From positions 157,032-221,031 of the forward strand of contig JBFMGG010000004.1 in assembly GCA_040752835.1 (NCBI GenBank): a stretch of DNA of 64,000 bases, read 5' to 3'. The notes under the pieces are model-generated. The model saw only the letters and a list, made by a program, of their open reading frames with translations. It was not told the DNA's origin and made no database searches. Shown piece after piece: positions 3,484 through 34,184 of the stretch. Source of the stretch: Campylobacterota bacterium. Its GTDB lineage: Bacteria; Campylobacterota; Campylobacteria; Campylobacterales; Sulfurimonadaceae. Positions within the stretch are counted from its first letter, which is position 1. Each line of letters opens with the position of its first letter. The translations under genes were made by a program, and so were the position numbers.

Positions 3484-3593
3484 AAGGGTAACCCTTGTGT
3501 GAGAAAATATCGCGGATTATACGGAAATGTTGATTGGATTGAGTTTAAACGGTTAAAAAAAGAGTGGAGTATTGGGAAAAAATAAAGGAAGAA

Positions 3594-3669
3594 TGGTGGC
3601 CACAACAGGACTTGAACCTGTGACCACTACCATGTCAAGGTAGTGCTCTACCAACTGAGCTATGCGACC
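3594..3669 (-). tRNA. tRNA-Val (anticodon GAC)
   Basis: A complete 76-base cloverleaf on the minus strand: acceptor stem GGTCGCA/TGTGGCC with two G-T pairs, D arm GCTC-AGTTGGTA-GAGC, anticodon stem CTACC/GGTAG with loop TTGACAT (anticodon GAC), T arm ACAGG-TTCAAGT-CCTGT, discriminator A and an encoded CCA end. It reads GUC and GUU valine codons. Confidence 0.96.
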
Positions 3670-24089: not shown

Positions 24090-25661
24090 ATGCATTTTTT
24101 CAACACGATCAAAGGCAAATTCATCGTCAATCTGGTCGCCGCGATAAGCGCGATCTTGGTGAGTGTCATTGTAGCATACTTCATCGCCACGAGTTCGATC
24201 AAGACGATCATGACGAGCGACCTCAACACCGTGGCCGACTCGCTCGAACAGACGGTTCTCTATATCTCCGAAATCGATCCCGAAGCGTACAAAAACGATA
24301 CCTTCAAAAAAGACATCTTCAAAATCAAAATCGGCCAGAGCGGATACGTCTACCTCGTCGACAGCAAAGGGACGATGCGCGTTCACCCCAAAAAAGAGGG
24401 GGAAAATCTCGCGGGGCACGATTACATCGACGAGATCCGTTCCCACAAAGAGGGGGGGATCTACGAGTACCATTCGGCCACGACCGGTCAGGACAAGATC
24501 GCTGCCTACCGCTACATCCCCGCATGGGACATGTGGGTCGTCCCCGGAATCAACAAAGCCGATTATTTCGACGAGCTCAAAGCCGGGTTCTTTAAATGGT
24601 TCATGATTCTCGGCACCGTCCTCACCGGGATCCTGATCGCGATCAACTATTTCTCCGGACGCAGCATTCTGGGCCCGATCGAAGCGCTCGACAACGTTTC
24701 TTCCGACCTCGCCCACGGAAACGGCGATCTGACCAAACGGCTGCCGATCATGAACAAAAATGACGAGATTGGTATCGCCAGCAACTACCTCAACCAGTTC
24801 ATTGCCAAAATCCAGAGCACGATCAACGATACGAAGCGGATCACCACTTCGGCCGTCGGTTCGACCTCGACCCTTCACAATTCGGCAAGCAATCTTTCCA
24901 TCCAATCGGAAAAAACCAATACGATCGCCCAGAACACCAACGCCACAGCGGCCGAAATCGGCGAAACGCTCGAACAAAGCGTCAACATCGCCAAAAGTAC
25001 CCTCGACAACAGCCGCTCGACTGAAGAGGAACTCAACAGCGTCCGCGAAATCGCCAACGCCATTACCCGTGAAATCCACAGTACGACCCAGATGAGCAAC
25101 GAACTGGCCGAACGTTTCACCCAGCTTTCCAGCGACGCGGCCAGCGTCAGCGGGGTTTTGGGAATCATCTCCGACATCGCCGACCAAACCAACCTCCTCG
25201 CCCTCAACGCCGCGATCGAAGCCGCGCGGGCTGGGGAACACGGACGGGGCTTCGCGGTCGTCGCCGACGAAGTGCGCAAACTGGCCGAACGTACCCAGAA
25301 GAGCCTGACCGAAATCAACTCGACGATTTCGGTCGTCATCCAGTCGATTTCCGATTCATCCGACATGATGAGCACCAACAGCGAAAACATCGAGCGGCTC
25401 GCCGAGCGCAGCGAGGAGATCGACGCCAAAATCGATTCGGCCGCGCAGGTGCTCCGCACGAACGTCGACGCCAGCCGTCAAAGCGTCGAAGCGGCCGAGG
25501 CGATGGCCCGCAAGATCAACGAGATCATCGCCAAAGTCTCCGAGATGTCGGGCCTTTCGCAAAGCAACCAAGAAGAGATCACCAAAATCTCCGCCATCGC
25601 GGGGGAGCTCTACGACGCGGCCACCAGCCTCAACGCGCAGCTCGGGCAGTTTAAATCCTAA
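24090..25661 (+). CDS. Methyl-accepting chemotaxis protein with single Cache domain
   Basis: A 523-residue transmembrane receptor: TM1 (about 12-32), a periplasmic single Cache sensor (about 35-185, with [21 protein letters not shown] and [13 protein letters not shown] typical of sCache_2), TM2 (about 187-206), a HAMP region (about 207-262) and a long cytoplasmic helical bundle. The kinase-control hairpin, [20 protein letters not shown], is near residue 375. sCache_2 receptors usually sense small organic acids. There is no CheR-docking pentapeptide at the C-terminus. The ligand cannot be told from sequence. Confidence 0.92.
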
Positions 25662-25673
25662 AACCATTTCCGC

Positions 25674-25679
25674 TATAAT
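25674..25679 (+). promoter_or_regulatory. Promoter (-10 box) of the cobalamin uptake/synthesis operon
   Basis: A perfect TATAAT in cgctataattcccc, just 13 bases after the chemoreceptor stop. It would start a leader of about 220 bases ahead of the TonB receptor. Confidence 0.6.
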
Positions 25680-25685
25680 TCCCCG

Positions 25686-25908
25686 AAAAAAAGGGGAGGT
25701 TTGCGATGCGTTCACCGCGCGGTTTCGGGAAAAACTATTTTTCGCTCGTCGCGATCCAGGCGTACGCGTCGCATGTACGCCTCCTCCAGAACATCACCCG
25801 GATCGAGTGGATCTGCCCGACCCATCCGATCCATACCTATTCGACCGTCTCTCCTCCCGAGGGTGTCCTTACCTCATCCGCCACAACGATTATGCAACAA
25901 GGACACCC
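25686..25908 (+). promoter_or_regulatory. Structured leader with sequestered ribosome binding site before the TonB receptor
   Basis: The leader shows ordered hairpins: GGCGTAC/GTACGCC (25759-25765 with 25775-25781), GGATCG-a-GTGG/CCAT-c-CGATCC (25800-25810 with 25822-25832), and a perfect 10-bp stem GGGTGTCCTT/AAGGACACCC (25861-25870 with 25899-25908). The last ends directly at the receptor ATG and buries its AAGGA ribosome binding site. A competing pairing joins GGAGG and TGCGA (25695-25706) with TCGCA and CCTCC (25769-25784). This is the layout of a translational switch. I find no B12 box, so it is not an obvious cobalamin riboswitch. Confidence 0.6.
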
Positions 25909-25978
25909 ATGCACCGACACACTCTTTCACTCGTTGCCGCCGCAACGTTCGTCGCTTCCACCGAAGCCCGGGAACTGA
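25706..25978 (+). CDS. Possible upstream ORF overlapping the receptor start
   Basis: A 90-codon ORF with a strong AAGGGGAGG ribosome binding site 6 bases before its ATG. It runs through all leader hairpins and ends 70 bases inside the TonB receptor gene, in another frame. Residues such as FGKNYFSLVAIQAYASHVRLL look plausible in the first half, while the second half is Pro/Ser/Thr-rich and probably just shadows the structured RNA and the receptor gene. A ribosome on it would melt the hairpin that hides the receptor start, so it may be a regulatory leader ORF. Its product matches nothing I know. Confidence 0.35.
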   Translation: MRSPRGFGKNYFSLVAIQAYASHVRLLQNITRIEWICPTHPIHTYSTVSPPEGVLTSSATTIMQQGHPCTDTLFHSLPPQRSSLPPKPGN

Positions 25979-27693
25979 CGCTCGACCCGATCGTCGTCAG
26001 CGCCTCCAAGACCGAGCAGACTCTCCGCAGCGTGAGCGCCAATACCGACGTTATCTCCGCCGATGAGATCGCCGAACGCCGCTACGCGACCCTCGCCGAA
26101 GCGCTCAACTCCCTCGCGGGGGTCGGGGTCGTCAGCAACGGCGGTCTGGGAAAATCGACCGCCCTCTACCTCAGGGGATTCGATTCGAAACGGACCCTGG
26201 TCCTGATCGACGGGATCCGCTACAACGACAACACCTCGATGGACGGTGCGTCGTTCGAGCATCTGATGCTCGGCGACATCGAACGCATCGAGGTGATCAA
26301 GGGTGCCCAAAGCGGCATCTGGGGAAGCGACGCGAGCGCGGGGGTCGTCAACATCATCACCCGCAAAACCGCTCCGGGCACCGAAGCGAAAGCCCTCTAC
26401 GAACAAGGGAGTTTCGGCACCAAAAAATACGGCGGGTCGTTCGGGTACGGAAACGATACACTCGACCTCCGCCTCGACGCCCGAAAAATCGTTTCGGACG
26501 GGTTTACGTCGTACGCGCGGCGCTATACCGATATCGAGCGCTACGAAGACGACGGCTATGAAAACCGTACCCTCGGGCTGAACGTCGGATACCGTTTCGA
26601 CGGCGCCAACGCGATCCGTTTCGCCCATACCGACATCGACGTCTATACCGAATACGACTCCACGAACGGCGACTCCGCCGCAAACTACCGCAAAAACGAA
26701 AGACTCAGCCGTCTGAGTTATGAAAACCGCTTTGGGGATGCGCTCACCACCCTCTACGCCAACCGTTCGACGTTCGAACGGGACTATTCGACCGGAACGA
26801 CCTATAACGGACGGGTCGGCGAATACGGCGCGCACTCCCGCATCGGCTACCGCGAAAACGATTTCATCGTCATCGGCGGGGACTACAAAACCTTCGAACA
26901 TCTCAACCGCCTCAACCGGGAATACGACAACCGGGCCGTTTTCATCACCAACACCAACATCCTCGCCACCGGCACCGTCGTCACCGAATCGCTGCGGCGG
27001 GACGTGTTTGACGTGTTCAGCGACAAAACGACCGGAAAAATCGGTTTCAAGCACCCCTGGGGCGAAGAGGGGTACGTCAGCGCGAACTACGGGACCGCTT
27101 ACAACGTCCCCACCCTCTACCAGCTCTACGACCCGACATACGGGAATACCGCCCTCAAACCCGAAGAGACCCGAAGCTGTGACCTCACCGTCGGTTACAG
27201 CGGGATCAGCCTCACCTATTTCGAAAGCCGCATCAAGGAGATGATCGAATACGATTTCACCTCATCGGCGTACGGTAATGTCGAGGGAACCTCCAGAATC
27301 AGGGGGATCGAGGCGGCCTTCAGGCAAGAATTGGGGAACGGGGCCCTGGTATCGCTGGGGTATACCCGACTCGATGCCCAAAACCAGCGCGGGGAGAGCC
27401 TGCGCCGCCGTGCGAAAGAGAATCTCAAATTCGGGCTCGACTACTACGGCATCCCCAAAGCACATGTCGGGCTGAGCGGAGAGTACGTCGGAAGCCGCTA
27501 CGACAGCGACAACGACCGGGGTGCGCAGACGGGAAAATACACCGTTGCCTCCCTCGTAGCCGACTATGCGTGCACGAAACATCTCAAAATCTACGCAAAA
27601 GTCGATAATATTACCGACAAGTATTACCAGAGCGTCAACAATTACGCCTCTAGCCCCCGGGCCTGGTATGCCGGAATAGAGGTGTCGTTTTGA
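25909..27693 (+). CDS. TonB-dependent outer membrane receptor, BtuB-like
   Basis: A 594-residue receptor: short signal peptide (about 1-20), TonB box region LDPIVVSAS (about 25-33), plug domain (to about 150, with YLRGFDSKRTLVLIDGIRYND and EVIKGAQSGIWGSDASAGVVNI) and a 22-strand-type beta barrel ending in IEVSF with the usual C-terminal Phe. The length is close to E. coli BtuB. The following genes are DUF4430, BtuF, BtuD, BtuC and cobalamin synthesis, so corrinoid uptake is the likely task. The start at 25909 has AAGGA 5 bases upstream, inside a hairpin. The symbol btuB is not assigned because ligand residues cannot be checked. Confidence 0.88.
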   Translation: MHRHTLSLVAAATFVASTEARELTLDPIVVSASKTEQTLRSVSANTDVISADEIAERRYATLAEALNSLAGVGVVSNGGLGKSTALYLRGFDSKRTLVLIDGIRYNDNTSMDGASFEHLMLGDIERIEVIKGAQSGIWGSDASAGVVNIITRKTAPGTEAKALYEQGSFGTKKYGGSFGYGNDTLDLRLDARKIVSDGFTSYARRYTDIERYEDDGYENRTLGLNVGYRFDGANAIRFAHTDIDVYTEYDSTNGDSAANYRKNERLSRLSYENRFGDALTTLYANRSTFERDYSTGTTYNGRVGEYGAHSRIGYRENDFIVIGGDYKTFEHLNRLNREYDNRAVFITNTNILATGTVVTESLRRDVFDVFSDKTTGKIGFKHPWGEEGYVSANYGTAYNVPTLYQLYDPTYGNTALKPEETRSCDLTVGYSGISLTYFESRIKEMIEYDFTSSAYGNVEGTSRIRGIEAAFRQELGNGALVSLGYTRLDAQNQRGESLRRRAKENLKFGLDYYGIPKAHVGLSGEYVGSRYDSDNDRGAQTGKYTVASLVADYACTKHLKIYAKVDNITDKYYQSVNNYASSPRAWYAGIEVSF

Positions 27694-28040
27694 TCCGGTC
27701 GGCTGCTATGCTGCTAAGCGTCTTCGCCGCTCTCTCCGCACAGGAGATTGACGTGACGCTCATCTACGGTGACGGGCGCCCCGAGCGCACCGTCCGAACG
27801 GAATATACGCCGGGAGCGACGACGGCGCTGGAGCTTCTGAAAAAAGTAAGCCTCGTGGAGACGGAACAGAAAGGGAAATATACCTTTGTCCGTTCGATCG
27901 ACGGGAAAAAATCGGTGGTCGGAAAGTTCGGCTGGTTTTATCTCATTGACGGGCAATCGGTCCACACCATGGCGCAGAATTACACGCTGGAGGATGCAAA
28001 AACGATGACGTGGCTCTATAAGGTCGAAGCGTGTTATTGA
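27690..28040 (+). CDS. DUF4430 (transcobalamin C-terminal-like) exported protein
   Basis: A 116-residue protein with a signal peptide (about 1-18) and one DUF4430 domain: ALELLKK, then GWFYLIDGQSVHTMAQNYTLEDAKTMTWLYKV. DUF4430 is related to the beta domain of animal transcobalamin and intrinsic factor. Placed between a BtuB-like receptor and BtuF, it may be a small periplasmic or surface corrinoid-binding protein. The start used is a TTG overlapping the receptor stop (TTGA); an in-frame ATG at 27708 would still leave most of the signal peptide. Confidence 0.75.
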   Translation: MIRSAAMLLSVFAALSAQEIDVTLIYGDGRPERTVRTEYTPGATTALELLKKVSLVETEQKGKYTFVRSIDGKKSVVGKFGWFYLIDGQSVHTMAQNYTLEDAKTMTWLYKVEACY

Positions 28041-28855
28041 AATTTCTGTGTATCGCCTCTTTGGTCCTTCCGGCATGGTCGTTCGATCGGATCGTCGCCC
28101 TGAGCCCCTCGGTCAACGAAATCCTCTTCGCCCTGGGCGAAGGGGAAAAGATCGTCGGGAACACCGCCTACTGCCGCTATCCGCCGCAGTCAGAAAAGAT
28201 CCCGAAAGTGGGGGGATTTTTCACCCCCTCGCTCGAAAAGATCGTATCGCTCAAACCCGATCTGGTGATTTTGCAGGAGAACAACGCCCCTCTGGCGGAA
28301 AAACTCGAACGGCTGGGGATCAAGACGATGGTGGTCAAAATCGATACCCTCGCCTCGATCCGCCAAACCCTCCTCGGCATGGGGAGGTTGCTGGACAAAA
28401 AAGAGAAAGCGTCCGCCCTTGTGGCAAAAATCGACCGTTCTCTCCGAAGCCTCAGGGGGATCGCGCAAAAGAAAAAGATCCTGATCCCCATCGGCTACAA
28501 CACCGATCTTTCCAAAGAGGTCTTCGTGGCGGGGCAAAACCTCTATTTCGACGACATCATCGAAGCCAGCGGGAACGTCAATGCGTTCCAAAGCACCCAG
28601 AAGGGGCAGCCCGCCATCACCCTCGAAAAAATACTCTCTCTCAACCCCGACGTCGTGATCATCCTCGCGCCGCTGATGAAAGAGAAAAAATTCACCGAGG
28701 AGCAGCTCAAGGCCCCGTGGCTGAAACTTCCGATCAACGCGGCCCGAACGAAATCGGTCTTCGTCGAATCGGGCGAATACGCGGGGATACCGAGCGACCG
28801 GATCGTTTATTTCATCGACGATTTCAAAGGGTTTTTACGTGAAGCTGTCCGTTGA
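28031..28855 (+). CDS. btuF: Periplasmic cobalamin-binding protein (BtuF-like)
   Basis: A 274-residue ABC transporter substrate-binding protein of the vitamin B12/siderophore class. It has a signal peptide (about 1-17), RIVALSPSVNEILFALGEGEKIVGNTAYCRYPP as in BtuF, FFTPSLEKIVSLKPDLVIL and a C-terminal lobe with SLNPDVVIILAP. It should pass corrinoid from the receptor to BtuC. The GTG start at 28031 overlaps the DUF4430 gene by 10 bases; a TTG at 28037 (TTGA overlap) is an alternative. Assignment to cobalamin rests on its neighbours. Confidence 0.82.
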   Translation: MLLKFLCIASLVLPAWSFDRIVALSPSVNEILFALGEGEKIVGNTAYCRYPPQSEKIPKVGGFFTPSLEKIVSLKPDLVILQENNAPLAEKLERLGIKTMVVKIDTLASIRQTLLGMGRLLDKKEKASALVAKIDRSLRSLRGIAQKKKILIPIGYNTDLSKEVFVAGQNLYFDDIIEASGNVNAFQSTQKGQPAITLEKILSLNPDVVIILAPLMKEKKFTEEQLKAPWLKLPINAARTKSVFVESGEYAGIPSDRIVYFIDDFKGFLREAVR

Positions 28856-29537
28856 CAATCTCTCGACCCCGTTTCTGAAGGGGATTTCGTTTGCGGTGCA
28901 TGACGAAAACGCCGTGATCCTGGGCTCCAACGGGGCGGGAAAAACCACGCTCGCCAAAGCGCTCGTGGGGCTCTACGAAACCTCCTCGGTACGGGTAGAG
29001 GGGGAAAAACTCGCCTCACTCGGCTCCGGGCGCCGTGCGCAACTGCTCAATTTCGTCCCCTCCGGGCTCGACGTTTTCGACGAATACATCGACGCCGAAG
29101 CGTTTTTGAACCTCTCCCTCCTCAACGGTTCGACCCCCGACGACCTCGAAACGGTGATGGCACGGCTCGATATTACGGGGATCCGAAACACCCCCTGCCG
29201 ATGCCTCAGCAGCGGCGAAAGCCAGCTTTTGCTATTTGCGGGGGGACTGTTGCACAACGCCCGGCTGACAATTTTCGACGAGCCGACGGCAAATCTCGAC
29301 AGCGACAAAAAAATCAAGCTCTTTCGGATGCTCAAAGAACACCCCGGCCGGAAAATCATCATTACCCACGACCTGAACCTCGCTTACCGTCTGGGGTACC
29401 GGATCCTCTATCTGCGGGAGGGGGAACTCGTTTTCGACGGGTCGGCAACCGATTTTTTCGAAGAGGGCCGCTTCCGCTCCCTTTTCGGAGACTCGATCTG
29501 CCGGGTCGGGGGACATTTTGCGGTGAACTACGCATGA
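28839..29537 (+). CDS. btuD: ABC transporter ATPase (BtuD-like)
   Basis: A 232-residue ATPase: Walker A GSNGAGKTT (about 29-37), signature CLSSGESQLLL, Walker B LTIFDEPTANLD and switch His in IITHDLNLAYR. It powers import with BtuC. It starts with GTG inside the btuF 3' end (17-base overlap) and its stop overlaps btuC (ATGA). It is slightly shorter than typical siderophore ATPases because the leader strands are reduced. Confidence 0.85.
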   Translation: MKLSVDNLSTPFLKGISFAVHDENAVILGSNGAGKTTLAKALVGLYETSSVRVEGEKLASLGSGRRAQLLNFVPSGLDVFDEYIDAEAFLNLSLLNGSTPDDLETVMARLDITGIRNTPCRCLSSGESQLLLFAGGLLHNARLTIFDEPTANLDSDKKIKLFRMLKEHPGRKIIITHDLNLAYRLGYRILYLREGELVFDGSATDFFEEGRFRSLFGDSICRVGGHFAVNYA

Positions 29538-30493
29538 AACGGCTCATATTCGCACTGTCGCTGATGATCCTCGCCGCCGCCCCGTTTGTGGGCGAAACGG
29601 CGATGAAACTTGCCAACCTCTTCACCCCGGAGGCGACCGAATACCTCCTGTTCTGGGACCTGCGCCTGCCGCGGGTAGGTGTCGCGTTTTTCACGGGGGC
29701 GGTCCTCGCCCTGGGGGGAATGGTGTTCCAGGCCGTGTTTCGCAACGCCCTCACAACCCCCTTTACTCTGGGCGTCTCGAGCGGCGCGACCCTGGCGACG
29801 GCCGTAGGAATCGTATTTTTACCCGCATCGCTGGCGGCCCTCTCGTACTTTTTCAGTTTCGTCGGGGCGTTTTCGACAGTCGTACTGCTGTTTTTGTTCG
29901 CGCGGTCCCTCAAAGCGACCCAGACCCATTCGCTCCTGCTCATCGGGATCGCCCTCTCCTTTTTCTATTCCGCCGCGCTGATGGTGATTTTCTACCTCAG
30001 TGATCTCGAACAAAGCTATTCGATCATCCGTTTTACGATGGGAAGCCTGAGCGTGGTGGGGATGGAGAGCCTCTATCCCGTCGCGGCGGCGGCGCTGGCC
30101 CTGCTGTGGGTCGTCGTACGCTACCGTCCCGAGCTCAAACTGCTTCTCACCTCGTACGAAAATGCGTTTCTCAAAGGGATCGAGATCAAAAAAATCAACC
30201 TGATCCTCCTCCTCTCCGTCTCGATGAGCGTCGGGGTCTGCGTAAGCGTCGTGGGGCCGATCGGGTTTATCGGGCTGGTGATCCCCCACATCGTCCGGCT
30301 GCTCTACCGCCGCAGCAGCGACGCGCTGATCCTCCCCGTATTCTATTACGGGGGCGTCTTCTTGGTGCTCTGCGACCTCGTCGCGCGCAATCTCGGAGCG
30401 GCCAGCGAAGTCCCCATCGGGGTCGTGACGTCGTTTATCGGGGGACCGTTTTTCATCTACATCATCCTGAAAAAAAGGGGGAGGCATGGTTAA
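29534..30493 (+). CDS. btuC: ABC transporter permease, FecCD family (BtuC-like)
   Basis: A 319-residue inner-membrane permease with about nine or ten transmembrane segments. FecCD hallmarks are LRLPRVGVAFFTGAVLALGG, NALTTPFTLGVSSGATL, the ATPase-contact region VGPIGFIGLVIPHIVRLLYR and the end EVPIGVVTSFIGGPFFIYIILKK. The ATG overlaps the btuD stop; a longer in-frame reading only runs through btuD in another frame. Its end overlaps cobB by 8 bases, linking import to synthesis. Confidence 0.87.
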   Translation: MKRLIFALSLMILAAAPFVGETAMKLANLFTPEATEYLLFWDLRLPRVGVAFFTGAVLALGGMVFQAVFRNALTTPFTLGVSSGATLATAVGIVFLPASLAALSYFFSFVGAFSTVVLLFLFARSLKATQTHSLLLIGIALSFFYSAALMVIFYLSDLEQSYSIIRFTMGSLSVVGMESLYPVAAAALALLWVVVRYRPELKLLLTSYENAFLKGIEIKKINLILLLSVSMSVGVCVSVVGPIGFIGLVIPHIVRLLYRRSSDALILPVFYYGGVFLVLCDLVARNLGAASEVPIGVVTSFIGGPFFIYIILKKRGRHG

Positions 30494-31748
30494 CCTCTGC
30501 ATCAGCGCCGTCGCGTCCAACCAGGGGAAAACGCTCCTCACCTCGGCGCTTCTGTACCGTTTCAAAGACTCCGTCCGGCCGTTTAAAATCGGCCCCGATT
30601 TCATCGACCCGCAGTTCCACCGCGCCATCTGCGGCACCGAAAGCATCAACCTCGACGCGTTCATGATGAGCCCGGAGCAGCTGCAATGGCTGTACGGACG
30701 CTATGCCGACCGTGAGGCCGCGATCATGGAAGGGGTGATGGGGTTCTACGACGGAATGGACTACGGCAGCAGCGCTTACGATATTTCCAAACTGCTCAAC
30801 GTCCCCACGATCATCATCCTTGACGCACAGGGGAGCTACATCACCCCCAGCGCCGTTCTCGGAGGGCTCAAAGGGTACCGACAAGACAACACCATCCGGG
30901 GGGTCATCCTCAACCGTCTGGGTTCGCAGAGCCATTACGAACTGATCAAAAACCGGATCGAAAGCGATTTCGGGGACGTGGCGGTGCTGGGTTGGATCCC
31001 AGACGGCCTTGAGGCGCTGCGTGATACCCATCTGGGACTTGATTTAAATGAGATGGATAAACTCGAAGCGATCTCCAAAGCGGTGTTGGAACATATCGAG
31101 ATTGAATCGCTCATAGCCCTGGGGAGACGTGAAGCCAAAGAGAACACCTCGTATCCGTTTAGAGTGCTCCCCAAAAGCGATAAAAAGATCGCGGTTGTGA
31201 GCGATGAGAATTTCTCCTTTTTGTACCATGATAATCTCCGATTTTTGCAAGAGGTATTCGCCGATGTCGTTATCGTCCGCCCCTCACGCGACGAAGTCAT
31301 TCCTGAAGAGTGCGACAGCATCTACATCTGCGGCGGATATGTCGAGACACCCAAAGCGTACGCCTCCATCCAAAAGGCCCAAAAGTTTAAAGCTTCATTG
31401 ATCCGTCATGCCCGAACGAAAAAGATCTATGCCGAGTGCGCGGGGCTTCTCTATCTCGGAAAGGGCGTCGATGAAAAAGCAATGAGCGGGATTTTGGAGG
31501 TCTCCTTTACCCTCGAAAAACGGTTCCAGCGGATGGGATACTACACCAACGAAGCCGGGGTGAGGGGGCATGCGTTCCACTACACCCGTCCTCTCGAAGA
31601 GGGCGATGCCTTCGATATCCTCAAAGGGGCGAAAACGGGGACCGGGCAGCCGGGAAGCTGGCAAAACGGCGAGGGAAACGTGCTGGGCACCTACCTTCAC
31701 ACCCTCTTTCGCAGCCATCCCGACCTCGTTCGACGGAGGCTGATGTGA
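30486..31748 (+). CDS. cobB: Cobyrinate a,c-diamide synthase
   Basis: A 420-residue CobB/CbiA. The N-terminal P-loop region is SAVASNQGKTLLTSALL, followed by KIGPDFIDPQFH and EGVMGFYDG typical of the ATP-dependent ligase half. The C-terminal glutamine amidotransferase half has the catalytic Cys318 in YAECAGLLYLG and His in YLHTLF. It amidates the a and c side chains of cobyrinate. CobQ in this cluster does the remaining four. The stop overlaps the bluB start. Confidence 0.93.
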   Translation: MVNLCISAVASNQGKTLLTSALLYRFKDSVRPFKIGPDFIDPQFHRAICGTESINLDAFMMSPEQLQWLYGRYADREAAIMEGVMGFYDGMDYGSSAYDISKLLNVPTIIILDAQGSYITPSAVLGGLKGYRQDNTIRGVILNRLGSQSHYELIKNRIESDFGDVAVLGWIPDGLEALRDTHLGLDLNEMDKLEAISKAVLEHIEIESLIALGRREAKENTSYPFRVLPKSDKKIAVVSDENFSFLYHDNLRFLQEVFADVVIVRPSRDEVIPEECDSIYICGGYVETPKAYASIQKAQKFKASLIRHARTKKIYAECAGLLYLGKGVDEKAMSGILEVSFTLEKRFQRMGYYTNEAGVRGHAFHYTRPLEEGDAFDILKGAKTGTGQPGSWQNGEGNVLGTYLHTLFRSHPDLVRRRLM

Positions 31749-32371
31749 AAGCTTTCGACGTCCACGCCCGAACGATCCTCCAATCGATCCTCTCCTCCCG
31801 CCGCGACGTGAGGGGACACCATTTTCTCCCCGATCCGATCGAGGAAAAAGCGCTGCGGGAGATTCTCGAAGCGGCGATCTCGGCTCCCTCGGTGGGCTTT
31901 TCCCAGCCGTGGAAGTTTCTCCTGATCCAAGACCCTGCCAAACGCGAAGCGATCTATGAAGAGTTTAGGAGAGAAAACGCCAAAGCGGCCCAAGAGTTCG
32001 GTGACCGTCCCCTCTATCCGAACCTCAAGCTCGAAGGGATCAAAGAAGCGCCTCTCAATATCGCCGTCCTTTACACAAAACCCTCCAAAGCCGTGCTGGG
32101 GCAAACCACCCAGAAAAAGACAGGGGAGTACAGCGTCGTGTGCGCGATCCAGAATCTCTGGCTGATGGCGCGCGCCCACAATATCGGGGTGGGGTGGGTA
32201 AGCATTCTTCGCCCCAAGCGGGTCAAAAAGATTTTGGGGATCGGCCGCGAATACAAACTGATCGGCTATCTGACGGTGGGGTACGTGAACGAATTTCTCG
32301 ACGAACCCGAACTGCTGAAACTGGGGTGGGAAGAGAAAAAAACGCTGGACGAGGTGGTCGAATGGGTGTGA
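31745..32371 (+). CDS. bluB: 5,6-dimethylbenzimidazole synthase
   Basis: A 208-residue nitroreductase-fold enzyme with the BluB-specific RRDVRGHHFLPDP and SAPSVGFSQPWKFLLI, then EYSVVCAIQNLWLMARAHNIGVGWVSI. BluB cannibalises reduced FMN with O2 to form 5,6-dimethylbenzimidazole, the lower ligand of B12. It implies that the organism makes true cobalamin when oxygen is available. It starts with GTG overlapping the cobB stop and overlaps the kinase gene by 10 bases. Confidence 0.92.
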   Translation: MKAFDVHARTILQSILSSRRDVRGHHFLPDPIEEKALREILEAAISAPSVGFSQPWKFLLIQDPAKREAIYEEFRRENAKAAQEFGDRPLYPNLKLEGIKEAPLNIAVLYTKPSKAVLGQTTQKKTGEYSVVCAIQNLWLMARAHNIGVGWVSILRPKRVKKILGIGREYKLIGYLTVGYVNEFLDEPELLKLGWEEKKTLDEVVEWV

Positions 32372-33126
32372 AAACCGTTATTGCGCTCAGCGATTTGCCC
32401 GCCTCGCTGGGGGTGAAAACGATCACGCCCAGCAGTGAGGGAGTCATGGACAGCGTCTATTTTCTGGATGGGGATCGGGTCTTGAAAATTTTCGAGACGG
32501 CAAGCGAAGAGGCAGTGTACGAGGAACTCAAACTTCTGAAACAGTGTGAAACGCTCCCTGTATCCCAACCCATAGGAGAGGTCATGAACATCGGCGGCAA
32601 ACCCGCCCTCCTCTACCGCCGGTGTCCCGGCCAAAGCCTTGAAACGGCACACACCGATCCTATACGGCAGATCGGGGCGTTTTTACGGAATTTCCATGCC
32701 CGAACGGCAACGCGGCACAGTTCCAACGAAAGGCTCTTCGAGCGGTCGCGGCTGGCGCGGATGATCGGAGAGTCCGATATGCCGATTTTTGAAACGCTGT
32801 TCAACAAAATCGACCCGCCCCTGCGCAACGACGGGATTATTCACGGCGATCTCTTTTTGGACAACGCCCTCTTCGAGGGGGACAGCCTCTCGTGCGTCGT
32901 CGATTTCACGCAGGCGTGCAACGGCGATTTTGTGTTCGACCTCGCCGTCGCGGCTCTCTCCTGGTGCGACAGTGAGGAGAAAACGGCGGCTTTGCTGGAG
33001 AGCTACGGCGCAACGCTCACTCCCGAGGAATTTCGCCCCTACCGCGAATACGCAACCCTTTTTTATTGCGTCAACCGTTATCGAAACGGCGGAAATTATC
33101 ACGAACTATTGGAGAAACTGGTATGA
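32362..33126 (+). CDS. APH/ThrB2-family small-molecule kinase in the cobalamin cluster
   Basis: A 254-residue aminoglycoside-phosphotransferase-fold kinase that most resembles type II homoserine kinase: catalytic loop IIHGDLFLDNALF, metal site VVDFTQACNGDFVFDLAVAALSWC. It sits between bluB and cobT with overlaps on both sides. CobD in this cluster needs L-threonine O-3-phosphate, and no PduX-type threonine kinase is visible, so this protein may supply that substrate (or a related amino alcohol phosphate). That role is an inference from context. ATG at 32362 was chosen; GTG at 32368 is a shorter option. Confidence 0.75.
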   Translation: MGVKTVIALSDLPASLGVKTITPSSEGVMDSVYFLDGDRVLKIFETASEEAVYEELKLLKQCETLPVSQPIGEVMNIGGKPALLYRRCPGQSLETAHTDPIRQIGAFLRNFHARTATRHSSNERLFERSRLARMIGESDMPIFETLFNKIDPPLRNDGIIHGDLFLDNALFEGDSLSCVVDFTQACNGDFVFDLAVAALSWCDSEEKTAALLESYGATLTPEEFRPYREYATLFYCVNRYRNGGNYHELLEKLV

Positions 33127-34184
33127 TCAAAACCATCACGGGAAACAAGGATTTCATCGAAAGCCTGCGGGGAAAACGGGCCGATTTTTTGCTCTGCATG
33201 AGCAACACCAAAACGGCCGAAATCCCCGGGATTACCCAGGCGGGGATTCCGGGGTCGTTCCATCTCACCCCGACGCTCGATGCGGAGTTCATAGCGATCG
33301 GAGAAGTGCGGAGCCTGGGGAGCATCGCCGAAACCCCCAAAGGGGTCCCCACCCCCGCCCTCATCACCCGCGCCGTCCATCTCCTCCATCCCTTCCGCCA
33401 GATCGAACTGCTGAACCTGGGGCTGGAAGTTTCCCCGAAACTGGAGCATTTCAGACTCCATACGTTCAGCATTTCCCCCAGCGATTCGATCGAGGGGGGG
33501 GCAAATATCCCCGCCGCGGAGGTGTTTGAAAAAGCCATCGCCTTCGCCCAGGATCTCACCCTCCAAAGCGACTACATCATTCTGGGCGAGTCGGTCCCCG
33601 CAGGGACGACGACGGCCCTCGCTACGGCGCTGGCACTGGGGTACGACGCGCGGGATAAATTCAGCAGCAGTTTCAAAAACGATCCCGGCGACATCAAACG
33701 CGCCGTACTCGAACGGGCCCTCTCCCGCATCGGCAAAAGCGATGATCTCTTCGGCATCCTCTCTGCGGTGGGGGACAACATGCTCATCTTTAACGCCGGG
33801 TTGATCCTCGGTCTCCAAAACCGCGACATCCCGATTGTGTTGGCAGGGGGGACACAGATGGCGTGCGTACTGCTCATCGTCAACCGTATTCTGCAGATGA
33901 TGGAAGAGAAGCTCGACAGCTCCCGAATCGCCCTCTGTACGACCAAATGGGTCGCCGAAGATACGTCAAGCGATATCAAAGCCCTCCTGGAGATGAACGA
34001 TTTTCCTCTCAACGCCTATTACGCCGATTTCGATTTCTCCCTCACCGATCATCCCGCGCTGAGACTCTACGACCAAGGGGAAGCCAAAGAGGGGGTCGGC
34101 GCAGGGGGTGCGCTGGTCTACGCGTTGCTTAACGGCATCACCAAAGAGCAGATCACCCGCAAAGTGGAGAGCTTTTTGCAATGA
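33123..34184 (+). CDS. cobT: Nicotinate-nucleotide-dependent phosphoribosyltransferase CobT, archaeal/cyanobacterial type
   Basis: A 353-residue protein of the TIGR00303-like branch, with LLCMSNTKTAEIPGITQAGI, HLTPTLDAEFI, LGESVPAGTTTALATALALGY and VLAGGTQMACVLLIV. It activates the lower-ligand base by transfer of phosphoribose from nicotinate mononucleotide to give alpha-ribazole phosphate. This branch is known mainly from archaea and cyanobacteria and differs from E. coli/Salmonella CobT. Start ATG overlaps the kinase stop (ATGA); its stop overlaps cobU the same way. Confidence 0.85.
   Translation: MIKTITGNKDFIESLRGKRADFLLCMSNTKTAEIPGITQAGIPGSFHLTPTLDAEFIAIGEVRSLGSIAETPKGVPTPALITRAVHLLHPFRQIELLNLGLEVSPKLEHFRLHTFSISPSDSIEGGANIPAAEVFEKAIAFAQDLTLQSDYIILGESVPAGTTTALATALALGYDARDKFSSSFKNDPGDIKRAVLERALSRIGKSDDLFGILSAVGDNMLIFNAGLILGLQNRDIPIVLAGGTQMACVLLIVNRILQMMEEKLDSSRIALCTTKWVAEDTSSDIKALLEMNDFPLNAYYADFDFSLTDHPALRLYDQGEAKEGVGAGGALVYALLNGITKEQITRKVESFLQ

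Follow-up and report, generated by a model that had tools for sequence, protein, structure and literature searches.

A class-wide leader peptide family suggests a translation-arrest switch for B12 genes in Campylobacteria

In the cutFOG operon of Rhodobacter capsulatus, a stem-loop 3′ of CutF shields the Shine-Dalgarno sequence (SD) of the gene that follows, and slow translation at the proline-rich C-terminus of CutF is proposed to open it; CutF is a copper-sensing member of DUF2946 and carries a Sec signal peptide as well as a CxxxC motif that binds Cu (PMC9973294). CruR of Bordetella pertussis, also a DUF2946 protein, is encoded by an upstream open reading frame (uORF) 5′ of a TonB-dependent transporter gene and has a Rho-dependent output; its C-terminal RAPP is needed for downstream expression, and its ligand is thought to relieve the arrest (PMC9426467). 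Cobalamin riboswitches control btuB and metE (PMC9600662), and in the metE and ppe2 leaders of Mycobacterium tuberculosis true riboswitches bind B12 and uORFs modulate expression (PMC11260477). Here, we describe a leader open reading frame (ORF) 5′ of a BtuB-like receptor gene in a 64,000-nucleotide stretch (the window) of a Campylobacterota bacterium of the Sulfurimonadaceae (contig JBFMGG010000004.1). The main interest of this ORF is its membership in a peptide family that extends across the class and is tied to B12 genes; an earlier interpretation of the same DNA (the sequence-only reading) missed both the family and its metE target.

Judged by analogy, the mode of action of this leader looks close to that of CutF and CruR. 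A stem-loop shielding the next SD occurs here as well, as seen from a covarying stem and from family-wide complementarity; like CruR, the leader is a uORF 5′ of a TonB-dependent transporter gene with Pro-Pro near the peptide C-terminus, here as SPP or HPP rather than RAPP. However, the leader peptides stand outside the CutF/CruR family, since eight peptides of different types gave no match to DUF2946 (PF11162) at E values up to 10 and the metal motif differs: CXXC or CxxxC is absent from most short leaders, including that of the window. Moreover, the peptides are linked to B12 and their targets are B12 genes, and no sequence relation was found to CruR, which has a copper ligand, CXXC and RAPP motifs, and a Rho output. 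The N-terminus of the leader peptide is basic and then hydrophobic, and the same motif forms the receptor N-terminus in other genera. Cobalamin riboswitches (RF00174) do the same job on the same target genes, btuB and metE, but there the sensor is an RNA aptamer, whereas the conserved part here is a peptide. The M. tuberculosis metE and ppe2 leaders resemble ours in having translated uORFs in front of B12-controlled genes, yet no comparable peptide family is described for them (PMC11260477). As to classical amino-acid attenuation, the leader peptides contain no run of Met codons, and no terminator-like site lies within 25500-26000.

Searches for known families were negative around the leader. 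Rfam gave no match at 25550-26100 and no RNA family in 20 related loci; RF00174 was found neither in the window at the gathering threshold nor around the leader at E values up to 10. Matches at E 2.9-6.3 near the leader in a permissive search were rejected as chance. Across the class, RF00174 was detected in 0 of 200 genomes, with 8 of 14 control genomes positive. The leader peptides had no significant match in NCBIfam, Pfam, PHROGs, or PDB. No B12-linked arrest peptide or family of this kind was found in the literature, which is weak evidence given its partial coverage (few subscription papers, no preprints).

The leader ORF (25706-25978, + strand, as are all elements of the locus described here) starts with ATG, comprises 90 codons, and stops inside the receptor gene; the ribosome binding site GGGGAGG lies at 25693-25699. 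Both had been noted before, and both stand. A consensus scan of the window places a promoter-like site, TTTAAA–18 nt–TATAAT, at 25650-25679, with TATAAT at 25674-25679, just 5′ of the ORF, and TATAAT recurs at equal distance from 33 of 65 non-redundant leaders. Since both elements are present, the transcript is expected to start shortly 5′ of the ORF.

The leader ORF encodes a peptide under purifying selection. In the genus Sulfuricurvum, the peptide MxxPxGFGKxYFSLxAIQAYASxVRLLQNITRIxW...YSTVSPP, or a variant of it, precedes 29/29 receptor orthologues examined, and a profile search recovers it in 40 of 41 genomes. In the leader frame, nonsynonymous differences (pN 0.145) are rare relative to synonymous ones (pS 0.68, near saturation), giving a pN/pS of 0.21; the two alternative frames give 1.6-1.8. 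The Ser-Pro-Pro at codons 49-51 (25850-25858), the putative arrest site, never changes in amino acids across leaders, at a pS of 0.69. The window ORF runs on past SPP rather than ending near Pro-Pro, but its peptide constraint ends there, 2 nt before the 5′ arm of a stem: in the 20 loci whose ORF continues into the receptor gene, the ratio is 0.19 up to SPP (codons 1-51) and 0.22 in the four codons that form the stem 5′ arm, then rises to 1.07 in the loop codons that follow. Codons 34-48 (25805-25849) occur across the genus in three alternative versions, EWICPTHPIHTYST, ELVAPVCPIYIYSA, and EWICPVCPVYTLSA, which are independent of leader type, as if swapped as blocks.

The stem pairs GGGTGTCCTT (25861-25870), starting 2 nt after the SPP codons, with AAGGACACCC (25899-25908), which contains the AAGGA of the receptor (25899-25903) and ends at its ATG (25909). 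This perfect 10-bp pairing, reported by the sequence-only reading, is conserved. In 20 Sulfuricurvum leaders, which we term type A, the 5′ arm starts 2-3 nt past SPP and has the SD as its partner. Pairing of the stem reaches 92.5% in this set, and three of its pairs show compensatory changes; these amount to six cells, a cell count reached by 0 of 500 shuffles, and slid versions of the stem stay below 55% pairing. Folded alone, the segment spanning SPP to the receptor ATG scores z = -3.8, with 97% of the SD paired. When the 9 nt that follow SPP are masked to mimic cover by an arrested ribosome, the predicted openness of the SD rises from 0.03 to 0.62 for the window leader, and the type A average rises from 0.13 to 0.43. 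In nine further leaders (type B), the ORF stops directly after SPP, most often as PPxND*, and an unrelated helix adjoins the SD at the equivalent position. Two type B hairpins (L018 and L025) carry a palindromic repeat-like insertion, CATTCCCG...CGGGAATGACGA, in the loop 5′ of btuB.

The helices proposed further upstream fared differently. Across the 20 leaders, the GGCGTAC/GTACGCC hairpin is 69% paired, shows no compensatory change, and does no better than shuffles, while the GGAGG/TGCGA pairing said to exclude it is weak (64% paired). Both sit in codons with freely varying third positions, and both were dropped. A second predicted hairpin (25800-25832; 72% pairing, weak covariation) is not claimed.

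Beyond the genus, all family members share the N-terminal signature [KR]GF(G/K/R)xxYFxLxAIxA, located at codons 5-19 (25718-25762) of the window ORF and present in 174 of 397 Campylobacteria genomes in a class-wide search. Its codon choice varies freely between members, which identifies the peptide as the conserved entity. The signature appears in three settings: in short leaders of about 50 codons that precede receptors and end in SPPxx*; in long leaders of about 105-130 codons, which end in RTGVHPP or similar where they precede metE and in SPP where they precede receptors, as some do; and as an N-terminal fusion to the receptor. Most long leaders contain a KPCHCN-type cysteine cluster, with a CxCN-type cluster in 27/27 of the metE type and 12/17 others. 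Among 80 GTDB loci, all Campylobacterota by their titles, 7 were cut off downstream and excluded; a hand tally of the remaining 73 gives metE as target in 23, a TonB (BtuB-like) receptor, preceded or fused, in 47, and other targets in 3. The genome of the window itself encodes a long metE leader of the family (L103, G000:C3:265250-265330) on another contig.

The end of the peptide is as distinctive as its beginning. Pro-Pro occurs within the last 17 residues of 49 of the 65 non-redundant leaders, a set that includes one unrelated pattern match ("AGFSGK..."), against 3.5 expected from residue shuffling, and the preceding residue is nearly always Ser or His. The terminal Pro-Pro lies mainly either about 42-46 or about 100-110 residues from GF. 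Nearly all long metE-type leaders (25 of 27) have a first Pro-Pro already 45-50 residues after GF; since this is close to the spacing of short leaders, the long leaders look like short ones extended by a second module. Additionally, the 30 nt after the terminal Pro-Pro exceed shuffles in their complementarity to the last 25 nt up to and including the next start codon; across 77 non-redundant leaders, the mean z is -1.35 (p 9e-10), as opposed to 0.02 for a control coding segment 5′ of Pro-Pro. The median distance from the terminal Pro-Pro to the next ATG is 62 nt.

Some loci depart from these arrangements. In L138 (from 2248) and L146 (from 403), the full leader and the receptor share one uninterrupted reading frame, and the receptor has an internal start; the two may be intermediates between separate leaders and fused receptors. 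Three Sulfurimonas short leaders (L179 and L181, both from 3001, and L198) have no receptor next to them; a probable outer-membrane porin gene, guessed from its N-terminal sequence, follows directly or after a chemoreceptor-like ORF, and porin is a possible third kind of target.

The link to B12 is supported by the regulated genes and by genome content. The receptor (25909-27693) has TIGR01779 TonB-B12 as its best NCBIfam match (E 4.8e-87, under the family cut-off) and carries the Pfam plug and barrel domains. The rest of the apparent operon (27690-34184, +) encodes a DUF4430 protein, BtuF-, BtuD-, and BtuC-like proteins, CobB (cobyrinate a,c-diamide synthase), BluB, an uncharacterised ORF, and CobT, and thus appears devoted purely to corrinoid uptake and salvage. 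The DUF4430 protein (27690-28040), whose gene lies between those of the receptor and the BtuF-like protein, has a domain resembling part of transcobalamin, so that it may bind corrinoid. Among the 397 genomes, 174 have the motif, 183 MetH, and 270 MetE; motif and MetH coincide in 168, the motif alone occurs in 6, MetH alone in 15, and neither in 208 (odds ratio 388). The motif is found in 4/138 genomes with MetE only, 126/132 with MetE and MetH, and 42/51 with MetH only. At genus level, counted by hand with weak matches left out, it occurs in 42 of 46 MetH genera versus 0 of 22 others, at a p-value (4e-14) that, like all those for the motif–MetH association, is inflated by shared descent. The pattern also holds within families: in one of them (f3), strong motif matches are confined to genera with clear MetH. 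Four of the six motif genomes without MetH have only weak matches (E 0.005-0.009), which may be false. Corrinoid, the ligand suggested by the sequence-only reading, is thereby favoured indirectly, through target genes, operon content, and co-occurrence with MetH.

Together, we consider it probable, if well short of certain, that the leader is a nascent-peptide translation-arrest switch for B12 genes that does the job of a riboswitch. The leader ORF would be translated first on the mRNA; once the N-terminal signature has been made, the ribosome would reach the C-terminal Pro-Pro and arrest. Covered by the arrested ribosome, the 5′ arm starting just 3′ of this site could not pair, so the hairpin that masks the next start region would fail to form and btuB, or elsewhere metE, would be translated. 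With plentiful corrinoid, arrest would be absent or relieved, the hairpin would close, and the gene would be off. We infer the arrest at Pro-Pro and corrinoid, or MetH status, as its signal; that arrest means ON and is relieved by corrinoid sufficiency is suggested by the targets, since B12 shortage is the condition that calls for an uptake receptor and a B12-independent enzyme. Of the two options left by the sequence-only reading, a ligand acting on RNA or ribosome movement on the leader ORF, the second is thus well supported by the anatomy (conserved peptide, end of constraint at SPP beside the stem, recurrence before receptors and metE), while a ligand-binding RNA is disfavoured by unconserved upstream helices and freely varying synonymous sites. 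More tentatively, the nascent peptide may sense corrinoid directly on the ribosome, with the signature and the roughly 45 residues to Pro-Pro forming a B12-responsive arrest module to which long metE leaders add a tandem CHCN...HPP module, making them two-input leaders; alternatively, a protein may mediate the response.

Several observations weigh against an arrest switch of this kind. Predicted SD masking is weak in type B (openness 0.36, and 0.40 when masked), complementarity is lower for metE leaders (-0.88) than for receptor leaders (-1.66), and it is individually significant in 32% of leaders only. Four receptor leaders (L064, L137, L139, and L140) have the signature and lack a terminal Pro-Pro, as do most fused receptors. 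Further, the arrest motif studied in depth is RAPP rather than SPP or HPP, and an arrest at the latter two might be relieved by EF-P. The C-termini of three of the four leaders without terminal Pro-Pro read LPLKEY or LPVKDY.

Among other explanations, a CruR-like leader, in which arrest at Pro-Pro controls Rho-dependent transcription termination rather than SD masking, is unlikely. The CruR uORF works in this way in front of a TonB-dependent transporter (PMC9426467), and a minority of our leaders shows no significant SD pairing; however, the genus has kept the SD-masking stem through compensatory changes, complementarity is enriched family-wide, and the distance from Pro-Pro to ATG is short. 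We give a similarly low probability to a real arrest switch that senses methionine, S-adenosylmethionine, homocysteine, or another product of MetH activity instead of corrinoid. A cell with idle MetH would benefit from both targets, and the extra cysteine-rich module is present in metE leaders and absent from short receptor leaders. On the other hand, receptors are controlled too, including in genomes that have MetH without MetE, and the operon in the window is confined to corrinoid functions.

It is less likely still that the ORF product is a small working protein, such as a secreted or membrane peptide handling corrinoid, with the stem serving translational coupling only. Strong conservation and a signal-like N-terminus, which doubles as a receptor N-terminus elsewhere, would fit such a protein, but an ORF that is unconstrained past SPP and ends within the receptor gene at 20 loci would be odd for a finished product; moreover, related leaders precede the cytosolic enzyme MetE, and the invariant Pro-Pro keeps a fixed place beside the hairpin. 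A new corrinoid-binding riboswitch that incidentally contains an ORF is very improbable: the 305-nt leader folds better than its own shuffles (z -2.75), yet synonymous differences approach saturation, the upstream helices are unconserved, Rfam gives no match, and it is amino acids rather than nucleotides that identify family members in different genera.

Elsewhere in the window, an Rfam match to HPnc0260 (antisense RNA) at 3498-3632 overlaps a tRNA on the opposite strand (3597-3669).

The family provides a candidate answer to how the class may control B12 uptake and metE without a detectable known cobalamin riboswitch, and shows that conserved leader ORFs can escape Pfam and NCBIfam. It offers recognisable modules that are open to direct testing. 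If the arrest switch proves true, a vitamin cofactor, or its status, would join the few signals read by nascent peptides.
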